From the NCBI GenBank assembly GCA_037974965.1, contig JBBPFI010000008.1, positions 558,001 to 622,000 on the forward strand: DNA of 64,000 nt, read 5' to 3'. Positions 29,200-56,567 of the stretch are shown piece by piece. The notes below the pieces were generated by a model. It did no database searches. It was not told where the DNA came from and saw only the letters and a list, made by a program, of their open reading frames with translations. Numbering within the stretch: position 1 is the first letter of the stretch; each line of letters opens with the position of its first letter. Both the position numbers and the translations under genes were made by a program. The DNA comes from Dacryopinax spathularia (Eukaryota > Basidiomycota > Dacrymycetes > Dacrymycetales > Dacrymycetaceae).

Positions 29200-31380
29200 G
29201 ACGGCCTTTACCCCTCTGCTCTGCACTTCCGCAGGTTGAAAGCTCGTGAACAATCAACTGGCAGGAGCATGGAAGTTTGCATGTGAGGTGTTGGTCTGGA
29301 TGGTGACAGACAGAACTGTGCAAAGTGATCCAGTAGATACATCCATTTTGAGGTTTTGGGAGAAGAGGTTGTTGTGCGGCCGTCCACCAGGCTTCGCCTG
29401 GCTTGGCGCTATTGGCTCCTGCATGAAGAAACAATCCTTAGTCAGTTGGCCAGACCCAGAGAACAAGAATGACGATCCATACCACAACAAGTGGAGGATT
29501 GTGCATGCTCTGTGAAACATAACTTCAGTGCTCTGTTACAAGCTACTTGCCAAGTGGCATAACACACCCCAGCTATCTGATCCAGCGCAGTATCCTGCAT
29601 GTCTATATTGCCCAGATCTTGAGCTATAGCATACACGATCCATTTTGCTGGCAAGTAGGAACCACAACCATCTGGAAATGGTTCTTCGTGAACTAGTGGA
29701 AAGGTAAGTTTCAATCGCCTAGATGTTCAGCATAGCTATTTGGGATGACGCACTTCGCATGTGCTGTTCAGGGAGATCCTCAACTGGGGTACCCTAACCA
29801 TAGCAGGCAAAGTTGGCTGGAGACCACACACTATTGGGAATGTAGGAGAGCGATGATGAAGATTTACTGTCACCATCACCTTGTGCGTGTTGGATGTTTG
29901 AGTAACTGGTTGAGCAGTCTTGTATGGTGGTATTCAATAACTTGACAGCCACATAAACGGCCTGCAGACATATATGCATACATCAGCTTCAAGCCCAACC
30001 ACATAAAATGGCATGCACTGAAAATCTCTGGCTTCCTCATTCCGAACAGACAATTTGATGGTCAGACGAGACCAGGAACGATAAGGATGATAGCGTAGAT
30101 CCAACTATGCACACATCCACAAAATCACCAATGAAGTCAGCGCATACATCCAGCTTAATGCAGCAATCTTACCCGTGGTAGCCCATGACACAGCAGGGAT
30201 TCAAGCTGAAAGCGGTTAGAGCACCATAAAGAATAGTGGTCCATCACCAAACTTGAGTACAGATAGGAGGCATTTCGTTAGTGGCGAACAAGAGGAGCAA
30301 TTAGGAACGATCCCGAGGCGAAGAGTTTGAAGCAAGAAGTCGGAAGCGAGAAGTCGGAAGCAAGAAGGTGGTCGAGAATGCAGGAGGGAAGCACGATCGC
30401 AATGCAGCTTTGCTCAATTGCATCCAAAGCTTCTCCACGTGGCAAGGGCAATCACACAAAATCCATGAGCGAACGATGTAAGGCCATTATTGCCATATGA
30501 TTTTGTGCCCATCCCCTAAGGTGTCTTGCTTCCAGATGGATGACCTAATGGAGCTTGACTAGACTGTTGTATGTATCTAGCACACAAAGTGAGTGGCACA
30601 ATGGTAGTGAAACAAGCCAATGTACCTCATTTTGAACCTACTGCACAGCTCGGCAGCGAAAGCTGAAGTTGGTGTCCCGCCGAAGATAGAATACTGTGAT
30701 TGGCTGTCAATGACATTATATGCGGGAGGATCCGAACACAGACCAGTTTGGATTGTGTATGGATGACTATGCAAGCAACACAATGAGAAGGAGATCTCAT
30801 CCGTGCCTGGATCGCTTGGGTCATGAGTGTGTGAGAGGTGCCGTGAGCGCTTGCACTGGCCCAGACAAACCACAGGGAGCTCGTCGTGTGATTGAGATGC
30901 ATGCTTGACGACTAGAAGCTGAAGCAGTGATATACATGTAATATGTTGTCATACTGAGGAACCCGCACATGCAACAGTCTTTTCTCTTGTTGTGAAGGCA
31001 GGACCCAGTACAGAAATGATCGGAGCCAAAAGTTCTACAACATGGACATACCTCTGAATGTTGAGCCATACGAGGTGAAACATGTCCGGTTATTTGCCCG
31101 GTCTATCTCCAAACAAACGTATTTGAGAGCCCCCAGAGCCGTGTGTATGGGCTTCATGCTTCCTGCTTCAGATATGATCCAAGTGTGTCTTGTAATCGGC
31201 TGGACACCGGTGGAAGATGTACAGGCAACACGATCGACAACAAGGATCCAAGGAGCCGTGCTTGAGGCATGTCGTAACGTTATTAGGAAGATACTGTACA
31301 CTTCCCGTAACTGTTACAAACATTGAAATAGTTGACTACCGCGCGACGGCATATTTTTGCGCCGCGTATACAGCGGGAGT
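29200..31380. other. Gene-free, CpG-poor, AT-richer block
   Basis: About 2.2 kb with no frame that reads as a protein and a base composition unlike the flanks. CpG is scarce (9 in the 480 bases 29461-29940 by my count; a 60-base stretch of the amidase exon at 41761-41820 has 5), while TG and CA are common. This pattern is what deamination of methylated C leaves in old, silenced repeats. I could not find terminal repeats, a reverse-transcriptase or transposase motif, or target-site duplications, so no element is named. Other old intergenic DNA or a non-coding transcript is possible. Confidence 0.5.
30329..30370 (+). repeat. Three tandem 14-base units
   Basis: Three adjoining copies of GAAGCAAGAAGTCG with one to two changes per copy, inside the CpG-poor block. 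Confidence 0.85.
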
Positions 31381-31382
31381 TG

Positions 31383-31415
31383 GGTTGCGGTTGCGGTTGC
31401 GGTTGCGGTTGCGGG
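31383..31415 (+). repeat. Hexanucleotide repeat (GGTTGC)5
   Basis: Five perfect GGTTGC units followed by GGG, at the right-hand edge of the CpG-poor block. Confidence 0.92.
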
Positions 31416-31960
31416 ATGGGCAATATTTGGAAAAGTAAAACATGTAATGCAGCGATGATGTCATTTCATTGGCCGAGATTCGGATTCCTGGTTTGAAGCA
31501 CCCGAGGAAAAGAGCGAATATAAGTTAATACAGCATACAAATAAGTTACAATGATAAAAAAAATCTGTCTCCTTCGTGAACATGCCGAGACCGACAATCA
31601 GGAAAGAAAGTATGCAGTCTCCTCCTCCTCCTCGTCCTTGTGGGTATGTAACACCGTCCTCGGCATCTCCGTCCCAAGAATAGCAGAGAAAACGTGAAAG
31701 TACATGCGGCGCAAATCGCTCGATGGTGCCTTGCTTGATAGAGCTGCGATCGACGGGCCGGGCCGTCGCTGTCATCCACCGGAACAGAGCGGATCGCGCG
31801 GCTTCTGTGTCATTGCGGCAGTTTCCAATTCCAGATTCGAGTCTGCCGTTTAACTGGTTGTTGTCGGGGCGATTCCCACGCAACGCATAGCATTGATCAG
31901 TCGAAAGGCCGGAGATCGGATCAAGAACCCGTCCAACGGGCGCTCGAAAGCGATCGGCAA
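31416..31960 (-). other. 3' flank of the MOCS1 gene
   Basis: No gene recognised. A minus-strand frame covering 31461-32087 overlaps the end of MOCS1 out of frame and is not protein-like. A TCCTCCTCCTCCTCG tract sits near 31620. Confidence 0.4.
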
Positions 31961-32746
31961 TTAGCGCTCGTCTTCTGCCTCGTCTTCGAGCCTGACAAAG
32001 TCTCCGCTCTTTCCACCGCTCTTCACCGTGACGTGAATATCCGTAATCTTCATGTCCTTCCCAGCGACAGCCTTGAGCATGTCCCATACGGTGAGCAGCG
32101 ACACCGACACTGCGGTAAGTGCTTCCATCTCCACACCGGTTTTGCCGTCACATCGGACTTCTGCTTCGCAGATGACCGAGCAGTCGGCATCAGGCGTAAG
32201 CGTGACCCGAACATGAGTCAGCGGCAGTGGATGACACAGTGGGATGAGCGAGGATGTCCGCTTGGCAGCTTGGATGCCCGCGAGCTCCGCCGTGAGCAGT
32301 ACCGGCCCTTTCGAGAGTGCCTTGGCGACGCGTTGGGCTGTGCGTTCGTCCTTGATTGCGGCTACGGTTTGGACGGACGTGGGATCCGTGATAAGATCGA
32401 AAGCCAATTTATTCAGATAGATCCGTCCCTTTGCGATAGCTGATCTGGAACTGACGGCTTTGTTGCTGACGTCGACCATAGCCGGTCGTCCATTTTCGTC
32501 CAGGTGAGTAAGCTTAGGAGCTTCTGCTTCTTCGGACTCGACGGCCGCCTGCATTCCAGAAGAGTGGAAATTTGCGCAGTGATGGGCTGTGGACAGACGT
32601 TGCATAGGCGGCGCGGCATTTGCCCATAACGGGAAATTCCGCATCAAACTTGGCCGATTGTACAGCCTTCTCTGGGACGAGAAGATCGTTCCTGTACAGG
32701 ACATGTTACAATCCCGAAAACTTGGTGACAAGATTGACCAAGCCAT
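31961..32746 (-). CDS. MOCS1: MoaC-like unit of MOCS1 (MOCS1B)
   Basis: Cyclic pyranopterin monophosphate synthase domain, which completes the first step of molybdenum-cofactor synthesis. The core begins LTHLDENGRPAMVDVSNK and continues with FDLITDPTSVQTVAAIKDER. The active-site stretch is SSLIPLCHPLPLTHV, and it ends in VWDMLKAVAGKDMKITDIHV and KSGGKSGDF. It is preceded by about 70 residues that are Ser/Arg/His-rich and nearly free of acids (for example FSSQRRLYNRPSLMRNF), resembling a mitochondrial targeting segment. The ATG at 32746 lies four bases after the TGA of the MoaA-like unit and in the same frame. This unit is therefore either expressed as part of a fusion (see the intron at 32692-32754) or by re-initiation. 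Confidence 0.88.
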   Translation of the reverse strand: MAWSILSPSFRDCNMSCTGTIFSSQRRLYNRPSLMRNFPLWANAAPPMQRLSTAHHCANFHSSGMQAAVESEEAEAPKLTHLDENGRPAMVDVSNKAVSSRSAIAKGRIYLNKLAFDLITDPTSVQTVAAIKDERTAQRVAKALSKGPVLLTAELAGIQAAKRTSSLIPLCHPLPLTHVRVTLTPDADCSVICEAEVRCDGKTGVEMEALTAVSVSLLTVWDMLKAVAGKDMKITDIHVTVKSGGKSGDFVRLEDEAEDER

Positions 32747-32754
32747 ACCTCAAC
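32692..32754 (-). other. Candidate alternative intron that removes the MOCS1A stop
   Basis: On the minus strand the sequence from GTTGAG (32754) to TGTACAG (32692) is 63 bases, a multiple of three. It contains the TGA that ends the MoaA-like unit. Removal would join ATT-GGC-G to GA-ACG-ATC, giving Ile-Gly-Gly-Thr-Ile-Phe. That keeps both the frame and the terminal Gly-Gly while fusing the two units. Retention leaves the stop. A second donor (GTATGG at 32748) to the same acceptor would keep the stop. The donor GTTGAG is not a strong consensus, so splicing is proposed, not shown. Confidence 0.5.
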
Positions 32755-34219
32755 CGCCAATCAGAATCATTGGCCGGTTATTGACAACATCAATGTTCTC
32801 CATACCTGCGTGCTTCTCTTTCTTCCTGCCCACAGCCATCCCGACCAAATCCATCAATTCATCATCGGTACGCCCTGACCGAAGAGCATCGCGCAAGGAC
32901 AGCTCGTTCGGTCCGAACAAGCATACCTGCGGCCAAATGTCAGCATGACTCTGTATGCGCCGAAAACACCGTGGAGCAGCTCGCCTTGATATTTCCATCC
33001 GCAGTGATACGCAGACGGTTGCATGTGCTGCAGAAATGGTCGGACATGCTACTGATGAAAGCAATGCTGCCACGATAGCCAGGAATAGTGTATGACCGGG
33101 CCGTGTCGTTCAGCTCATCCGCCGCTTTACGAACGCCGGGGTACCGCATGGAAATTTGCTCCAAGAGCTCGCCGGACGGAACCATCTTTGCCTTGTCCCA
33201 CTTATTACCTGCGATCCGGAATCCCGGTAACTAAGCACGCGAAAATTCCTGGATGATCAAGGACACTTACCGGTAAACGGCATGAACTCGATGAAACGGA
33301 TGGATATCGGGAGGTCCTTGGTCATTTCCACAAAATCCAACACTTCTGACTCGTTCAGACCCTTGACGATCACCACGTTGAGCTTAATCGACTGCAGCGC
33401 GGATAAGCTCAGCGCAGTGTGCAACGACTTGAGAACCGCATCGTGCCCTCGTCGGCGTGTGATAAGCTCAAACTTGAACTCGTCAAGCGTGTCGAGGCTG
33501 AGCGTGATATCAGAAGCTTCCCCAGTGATGGACGGTTGGCACATACCTGAGGTTCAGATGAGTCAGGCCGTTTTCCACAAGATCCGGCAGTTTGCGATGC
33601 AAGGCCAAGCCATTGCTTGTCATTCCGATGGACTGCAAACCCAGTCGCCGTAGATACGACAATCTTCCTGAAGGAGGTGTTACTCCGCATCATGCGGGGT
33701 GGATACATAGCCGCAAGCTTACCAACTAATTCGACGATATTCTTTCGTACGGTAGGCTCTCCTCCCGTAAGCCGAATCTTAGTGACGCCATTACGAACGA
33801 AAAGCTCTGCTAGTCGGACAATTTCGTCGTCCGTCAAGAGATCTTGCCGAGGCGAAAGCTCGATACCTTCCTCCGGCATGCAATAGAAACCTGTGTAACA
33901 TGCGTGTCAGGCTTTGGAGATGATGTTGCATATGGATCTGCCGACGTACATCGCAGATTGCACTTTTCGGTGAGCGAAATCCGGAGGTAATCATGCTGGC
34001 GGTTGTATGCATCGACCAGCTGCGGTGCTACACGAGATGATCTTGCATCAATCTCAGCTATCCTGGTCTAAACGCCGTCAATCCGGGTTCATTGTGACCG
34101 CGTTGGGTATAGCGTACTTTGGCAAGATCCCGTTTGACGTTCGCTGCTACTGCGGCATATGTTCGGACGCCGACTTGACCGAGGATGGACCTTGCCGAAG
34201 CACGGCGTAGACTTTGCAT
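32750..34219 (-). CDS. MOCS1: MoaA-like radical-SAM unit of MOCS1 (MOCS1A)
   Basis: GTP 3',8-cyclase, a radical-SAM enzyme that starts molybdenum-cofactor synthesis in mitochondria. Exon 1 (34219-34118) is a short Arg/Ala/Ser-rich presequence. A 50-base intron (34117-34068) joins it to [20 protein letters not shown]. Splicing across 33949-33891 rebuilds the 4Fe-4S motif CNLRCFYC (CX3CX2C). [29 protein letters not shown] and [14 protein letters not shown] follow. The second Fe-S motif is [18 protein letters not shown] (CX2CX13C). Its spacing is right only if a 58-base intron with a GC donor (32984-32927) is removed. The unit ends in ILIGG and TGA; the C-terminal double Gly is known to be needed in MoaA/MOCS1A. 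A 43-base intron lies near 33717-33675. Confidence 0.9.
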
Positions 34220-35853
34220 GCCGGCCTGGGGGTACCAGAGAGAGGGAGAGAGAGAGACTGGTGGCGTGTGAACTCTGTTAGCGATGTGCTGGAGGTGTAT
34301 GCATCTCGCGCCCAATTAACAACCGAAGAAGAAGGAACAATGAGCTGCCGGGCGTATGCAATAGAGAGAAGGGCGCCACTTTTACGCAACCTCGGACGCG
34401 CGAGTACAGCTCCGCTCGATGTGGGTTGCCGTACCTCATCCGCGTCGCCGCCATAGTCCGCTCCACCTCAACACAACTTATCCTTTACGGTCGTCTCGAC
34501 GCCCTCTATTATACCAATAGTTCGATTGCCTCAGGCGCTCGTTAGCTTCAGCAACGCTTCCATTTCTCCCGATATGCGTATTGCACCCGCAAGATTCACT
34601 GCGGGCGGAGCAAGGGCACAGCTCCGGCTGCTCGTCCCGACTCACATCAGCTCAACAACTCGAGCGCCCAAAGTCATCATCGCGCTCTCATTGCCACCGT
34701 GCCCGCATTGTCAACAATATTTACAATGTGATCCGCTTTCCCGGCGTATGGAAGAGAGCACACAGTGTATTGTAACAGTGTTCGGAGAAAGTCCGCCATA
34801 TGAAGGCTCTCATCGGTTACAGGGCGTTTCTACGCTACCGCGCGGCCGACATAATCCGTCATGCAGCAATGTCCCTGGAGAAGCTCTCTAGCTCATGACC
34901 TCGAGGCACGACATCTTACTGCGAACGCTGATAATCAGCGAAGTCGTGCAGCGTCGGGCTGTGTTTTCCAAACGGAGCCTATGAACGCACGAATCCGGAT
35001 GTTGTGCAGCCAAGAAAATTCGGAGGCGGTGTGGCCGTCCAACATCGGCTATCTGAATTTGGCTTAAGGATGAGTCCTGTTGTAGCGAAATCCTGCCTGT
35101 CATGCGCAGAAGTCATCATCACCTCAGGGACCGTACAGGACGCACGGACATCCCGACATCAGCGAATCTGCTCCCGATCATATGGAATGACGGGCGCACT
35201 ATACGCTACCTTCCAATCTTCACACGAGGCCGTGCTCTTTTTCTAAGGTTGATTCACAGTCATGGCACGTACTACGGCTTGCTCGGGTCGCTTGTTATGG
35301 GCTGCGTTCAGCGCTCTGTTCGGTGTCTCCGTCGATGATGGCGCCAAATTGGCCATGCGTCGCTGAAACGCCTGCGCTGGGATCCCCCTTGCCGAAAATC
35401 GTTCCCTCTCACGGCACACCAGGCGCGCTGATCAGCTTACAGTAAAGTGCTTCGCCACTGTCGACCGAATCTGGAAAAGAAGCCCATCTCATCTCGATAG
35501 CACCATCCGCCGTACCGGGCTTGAGAATACGGACCGTCGCTTGGGCATTACGGAGCCCGTACGTGGTGCACAGGTATCGATGATTCGCCACAACAACTGC
35601 CTTCTCTACGCCCGAACAAGGTATATAAAGGGCACCTGAACATTACCGTCTCCCCACCAAGCAAACAGAGCTACTCTACCTCCCGACTCGTCTCTAATCT
35701 TACTCTACCTCCCCCACTTAATCCCCACCTTCGCCGAGTCAGGAATCCGCATCGTATCCGTACTTCTGCTTTCGGCAACGCATTCGAATCGAGTCAGCAT
35801 CCAGGCACAACCTCAAAATACCCATAGCAAAGCACCCAACTGAGCCGACCACA
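34220..35853. other. Gap between MOCS1 and the first GNAT gene
   Basis: About 1.6 kb. It holds the MOCS1 promoter (a CCAAT-like sequence near 34511) and a GAGA tract at 34238-34258. Short frames on both strands (for example a minus-strand 60-codon frame at 35409-35591) resemble no family. A TATA box near its right end is listed separately. Nothing else is supported. Confidence 0.4.
35622..35629 (+). promoter_or_regulatory. TATA box of the first GNAT gene
   Basis: TATATAAA about 225 bases before the start ATG at 35854, followed by a pyrimidine-rich (CTCTACCTCCC) stretch typical of fungal transcription start regions. Confidence 0.55.
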
Positions 35854-56473: not shown

Positions 56474-56567
56474 TCTCCGGTGCGTGGGTCGAACACGCGA
56501 CATTCAGATGACAACTTGCTGTTGTGCCCGTTACAGTCTGACGCTCTACCAACTGAGCTAACCAGAG
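56474..56567 (-). tRNA. tRNA-Tyr (anticodon GTA) with 21-base intron
   Basis: The cloverleaf folds fully. The acceptor stem CTCTGGT/ACCGGAG has one T-G pair. The D-arm is GCTC-AGTTGGTA-GAGC, the anticodon stem TCAGA/TCTGA, and the T-arm GCGTG-TTCGACC-CACGC, with discriminator A. The anticodon loop CTGTAA + A has the GTA anticodon, interrupted after position 37 by an intron of 21 bases at 56530-56510 (CGGGCACAACAGCAAGTTGTC). Mature length is 73. A 5' C and an intron at this site are both typical for eukaryotic tRNA-Tyr. The A- and B-boxes (internal promoters) are intact. It lies in the gap between the oxygenase and POM152 starts. Confidence 0.93.

Follow-up and report, generated by a model that had tools for sequence, protein, structure and literature searches.

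A fungal-type MOCS1 locus in Dacryopinax spathularia and the possible separate translation of MOCS1A and MOCS1B

The window, a stretch of 64,000 nucleotides from Dacryopinax spathularia, contains a fungal-type MOCS1 gene on its minus strand. MOCS1A (MoaA, GTP 3',8-cyclase; 32750..34219) is followed there back to back and in one frame by MOCS1B (MoaC, cPMP synthase; 31961..32746), an organisation that humans and Neurospora are known to have. Judging from the sequence, there is about an even chance that this is an ordinary bicistronic locus whose two proteins are translated separately. MOCS1A would then be translated to its genuine Gly-Gly-TGA end, and MOCS1B would be synthesised independently, starting at its own AUG and bearing a mitochondrial-type leader. 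Either re-initiation after termination on one common mRNA or a shorter transcript that begins inside MOCS1A could be the route. The main rival is a candidate splice fusion of the Neurospora type (32805-32692). A 63-base intron across the stop (32692..32754), proposed in an earlier note on this DNA, is very likely a chance pattern.

Results

MOCS1A extends from an ATG at 34219-34217 to a TGA at 32752-32750 and encodes 378 aa in seven exons on the minus strand (34219-34118, 34067-33950, 33890-33723, 33667-33547, 33497-33271, 33208-32985, and 32926-32750). The spliced product matched TIGR02666 over positions 1-336 of 336 (350.8 bits), and its best solved-structure matches were 1tv7 and 2fb2, both MoaA. 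The N-terminus read from 34219 is a basic leader; the C-terminus reads Met-Ile-Leu-Ile-Gly-Gly-TGA. Since the MoaA model was matched through its final position, this TGA probably does terminate MOCS1A. The Gly-Gly end described in the earlier note is genuine, the profile match reaching the last residue before the stop.

The six inferred introns of MOCS1A scored 3.5 to 7.9 in our splice model. The top score of the gene, 7.9, belongs to 33891..33949 (59 nt, GTACGT...CTGAC...CACAG), whose removal restores the CxxxCxxC cluster motif. The intron at 33668..33722 (55 nt, score 6.6) is without a CTRAY branch and has a GTAAC near its acceptor, the same as at the MOCS1A/MOCS1B junction. The last intron, at 32927..32984 (58 nt, AAG/GCGAGC...CTGAC...CGCAG; its score includes no penalty for GC), is probably GC-AG. 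A GT alternative starts at 32969 and measures 43 nt; the GC-AG version is the best reading because it gave 350.8 bits with TIGR02666 vs 340.9 for the GT version.

MOCS1B has its own ATG and encodes 261 aa, with the MoaC domain at 32479-32012 (PF01967, 157.7 bits). The TIGR02666 and PF01967 matches agree with the previous identification of a MOCS1A-MOCS1B locus. At the junction, the order in the single frame is Ile-Gly-Gly-TGA-Gly-Met. The TGA stands right behind Gly-Gly in the context UGA GGU, and the MOCS1B ATG (32746-32744) lies one codon past it, the AUG beginning four bases after the stop; read past the TGA, the frame of MOCS1A meets its next stop only at 31961. These coordinates confirmed the shared frame and the separation by TGA, one codon and ATG noted previously. 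As in a MOCS1-type bicistronic locus, the MoaA and MoaC units were found in one locus on a shared strand with A first, and MOCS1A ends in Gly-Gly with a stop immediately after it.

Three observations concern the locus and its surroundings. The match of MOCS1B to 1ekr splits in two at 32389-32321 (minus strand), where ~20 extra residues (around TDPTSVQTVAAIKDERTAQRVAK) appear to be present relative to this E. coli-type MoaC. Downstream of MOCS1B, at 31379-31414, there are about six tandem copies of GTTGCG. Elsewhere in the window, a tRNA gene of 94 bases, possibly with an intron, was found by Rfam on the minus strand (56474-56567).

A profile search of the genome (29.2 Mb, 24 contigs), which its introns mark as eukaryotic, revealed a single MoaC match, at this locus, and two matches of Mob_synth_C, both to exons of this MOCS1A gene; the search thus found one MoaA gene and one MoaC gene. 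For Oxidored_molyb, a domain family of molybdenum enzymes, there were 7 matches, spread over three regions of the genome, and the molybdenum cofactor is therefore probably used. With a sole MoaA gene, a sole MoaC gene and these enzyme domains, both proteins should be made. A six-frame genome search for MoaE (PF02391) gave no match at E 0.001, and introns may hide this gene. No relatives of MOCS1B were found in the viral contigs searched.

The leader of MOCS1B was analysed from each of its first three Met residues. Residues 1-45 counted from the first Met contain 5 Arg and 1 acidic residue. Among windows of that length, none of 300 in MoaA beyond its leader was as basic and acid-poor; in the MoaC domain, 7 of 128 were. 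Counted from the second Met, the leader has 5 Arg and no acidic residue; from the third Met, its net charge is -1. Its hydrophobic moment reaches a modest 0.37 when counted from the first Met and 0.44 from the second, vs 0.50 for the MOCS1A leader. The ATG context is good, with G at -3 and G at +4. This composition suggests a leader of mitochondrial type, with which MOCS1B, in contrast to NIT-7B of Neurospora crassa, would be able to enter mitochondria on its own. An internal mitochondrial signal before MOCS1B had been proposed. A basic leader is indeed located there, but it would suit a separate MOCS1B too; because it could also serve as an internal signal in a fusion, the leader does not decide between the readings.

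To score candidate introns, a splice model was built from 49 sequences that total 311 kb of this genome; they comprise fetched loci and the window, masked over the MOCS1 gene (31901-34400), after exclusion of 12 overlapping loci. Training and tabulation of donor bins used the same 311 kb. The commonest donors in 231 kb were GTGCGT, GTACGT and GTGAGT, and the branch site was mostly CTRAY. Donors scoring below -3 showed no excess at intron spacing. In the 231-kb counts, which included 31901-34400 unmasked, observed vs expected numbers at intron spacing were 40 vs 6.7 for GTGCGT, 7 vs 3.7 for GTATGG, and 8 vs 6.3 for GTTGAG. In the whole genome, the pattern GTTGAG...CTGAC...CAG occurred 106 times at intron spacing vs 109 times at a spacing 200 bases longer; judged only by its reversed controls (65 and 66), the pattern would seem mildly in excess at either spacing. 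The corresponding counts for GTATGG were 108 and 98, with reversed controls of 51 and 76. The positive control GTACGT gave 671 vs 71 for the reversed control, which is its sole comparison. GTAAC was not enriched as a branch behind GTGCGT donors (43 vs 66 in the reversed control) or in the 311 kb (6 vs 6.3, with 31901-34400 unmasked). CTRAY is absent from three of the six MOCS1A introns, one of which has GTAAC; the lack of a branch therefore cannot decide the matter, and the case depends on the donor.

Seven GT-AG pairs at the junction, 40-159 nt long and including the 63-base one, keep the frame and skip the stop. The best-scoring of them is 32692..32805 (minus strand; 114 nt, CAG/GTATGG...TGTACAG), at -2.2, and no frame-keeping pair examined across the TGA scored higher. 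Its removal would take out both Gly-Gly and the stop, so that ...KHAG runs on into TIFSSQRR...; this is the layout of Neurospora nit-7, with Gly-Gly and the stop inside the intron and a length that is a multiple of 3. A fusion that keeps Gly-Gly, as claimed earlier, is thus not what the best candidate would produce. Through this pair the locus might operate a switch of the Neurospora type: a weak intron, mostly retained, would give MOCS1A, and its occasional removal would give a MOCS1AB protein without Gly-Gly that delivers MOCS1B. We consider such a switch possible but doubtful. The mechanism has been described for N. crassa nit-7 and a related one for human MOCS1 (PMC7232280 and PMC9607355), the pair is frame-keeping with a fair acceptor (TGTACAG), and in the MOCS1A intron 33722-33668, too, CTRAY is missing and a GTAAC stands close to the acceptor. 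However, the score of -2.2 is below those of all six introns of the gene, and also below the range of 0.5 to 10.5 spanned by the best candidates of 13 mitochondrial-carrier gaps (14 gaps were examined, one was without candidates, and these best-per-gap scores, being maxima, lean high). The GTATGG donor is hardly enriched at intron spacing by the counts given above, nor is GTAAC as a branch. Codon shuffles of the two flanks reached -2.2 in 1666 of 2000 cases. For a wider span, comprising the whole last MOCS1A exon and the MOCS1B leader with GC donors allowed and introns of up to 519 nt, 999 of 1000 shuffles matched or beat the best of 59 real pairs. If anything, the junction is poor in splice-like pairs. 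No CTRAY branch is present downstream of 32764 as far as 32400.

Other pairs at the junction were also considered. A 57-nt in-frame pair at 32692..32748 (minus strand, score -2.2) would excise the ATG at 32746 and leave the TGA in place. The octamer AGGTATGG occurs at both donors, 32805 and 32748. We rejected a 57-nt tandem duplication as the source of this repeat; ungapped identity was 17 of 57, and 379 of 2000 shuffles aligned as well. Splicing of 32805-32749 is disfavoured; its acceptor is GAG, although a CTGAT branch is present, and it scored -5.6.

Read-through of the UGA on the same mRNA would yield a MOCS1A-MOCS1B fusion, and the shared frame without a stop until 31961 would permit it; the earlier note listed it, like re-initiation, as an alternative. 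UGA is described in PMC4207609 as leakier than UAA and UAG, and UGA CU as the efficient fungal context. The stop at 32752 is followed by GG instead of the CU of fungal read-through genes, which makes read-through unlikely. Folding around the stop was unremarkable in three stretches (z -1.55, -0.60, and -1.63), and an ATG one codon later would be superfluous. We regard read-through as highly improbable; a separate start of MOCS1B appears to fit the sequence better. The Gly-Gly coding sequence (32780-32751, minus strand) can form a hairpin that closes on the initial UG of the UGA; this RNA hairpin is weak, its energy not being significant, as 14 of 200 shuffles folded at least as well.

The 63-base stretch at 32692..32754 (minus strand) has the donor GTTGAG and the fair acceptor TGTACAG, spans the TGA and, as described in the earlier note, leaves the frame intact on removal, giving Ile-Gly-Gly-Thr-Ile-Phe with Gly-Gly retained before MOCS1B. 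The pair scored -12.3, vs 3.5 to 7.9 for the six MOCS1A introns, and ranked 477 of the 637 GT-AG pairs in the gene. Its donor alone scored -11.3, in the class without an excess of real introns, and the genome-wide counts of GTTGAG (106 vs 109) do not indicate a functional donor. A donor 6 bases downstream is 10 bits better yet retains the stop, and the pair is without a CTRAY branch. When the codons of both flanks were shuffled, 1993 of 2000 sequences held an equal or better frame-keeping, stop-skipping pair. The donor and chance tests led us to reject this intron, and the presence of the stretch on which the proposed switch depends is at chance level; exact removal of 32754-32692 can be put aside as the least probable of the readings considered here.

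Discussion

Eukaryotes in general re-initiate inefficiently once a long ORF has been translated, which counts against separate translation of MOCS1A and MOCS1B. So do the frame shared by A and B (1 in 3 by chance) and the several ATGs just upstream of the MOCS1B ATG, and the weak splice sites might also mark a regulated, mostly retained intron. Precedents point in the same direction. According to PMC7232280, N. crassa NIT-7B initiated at its own start failed to be imported, and growth was not restored by NIT-7A together with NIT-7B, NIT-7AB being required; for the human bicistronic transcript, PMC9607355 describes that the first ORF alone is translated. On the other side, MoaA is complete at the TGA, no pair with credible signals lies across it, the MOCS1B AUG has a good context, and its leader is basic and acid-poor. 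Separate translation remains our preferred reading, with the separate start of MOCS1B deduced from these features. A more specific version, in which translation stops and restarts at the UGA-GGU-AUG of a nuclear fungal mRNA with MOCS1B using its own mitochondrial leader, and in which this lineage replaced the human and Neurospora splice fusion by a two-protein bicistronic mRNA, is rather unlikely on the present sequence. In several mushroom-forming fungi, polycistronic transcripts are reportedly widespread (PMC4503453), and stop-and-restart translation has been discussed for victoriviruses of fungi.

The earlier comparison with human MOCS1 was apt, and nit-7 is the closer precedent. According to PMC7232280, the unspliced nit-7 transcript gives NIT-7A and the spliced one NIT-7AB; the intron contains Gly-Gly and the stop, the fused A part is described as inactive, and NIT-7B is released from the fusion in mitochondria. 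A switch by intron retention has thus already been published for a fungus as well, and in Neurospora the fusion loses Gly-Gly. The D. spathularia locus resembles nit-7 in being one fungal locus with A before B and with Gly-Gly and a stop ahead of B, and in that A and B can be fused in frame. It differs in its introns: nit-7 has a single one, 1460-1696 (variant 1469-1696), shown to be spliced (PMC7232280), whereas MOCS1A of D. spathularia has six others and no intron with credible signals over the stop. The MOCS1B ATG one codon past the stop is a further difference.

Human MOCS1, according to PMC9607355, has two ORFs in the same order, a stop-retaining transcript that gives MOCS1A, and a targeting motif before MOCS1B. 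Alternative splicing at exon 9 yields a fusion that is then cleaved in mitochondria; no splice choice comparable to that at exon 9 is supported here. Aspergillus nidulans cnxABC is also a fungal MoaA-MoaC locus, a comparison made by description only; for it, according to PMC7232280, a bicistronic transcript with separately translated products has been discussed. Plant cnx2 and cnx3 are separate proteins from two gene loci (same source), unlike the one locus here. Literature searches for MOCS1 together with basidiomycetes, and for fungal MoaC fusion proteins, molybdenum cofactor and mitochondria, returned nothing.

The first step in making the molybdenum cofactor requires a MOCS1A whose Gly-Gly end is free, together with MOCS1B located in mitochondria. 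The human and Neurospora answer is a splice fusion that is cut later. If the touching units of D. spathularia indeed have no usable intron between them, they would represent a third solution beside that splice fusion; if the weak intron is used after all, another fungus would join the Neurospora switch.
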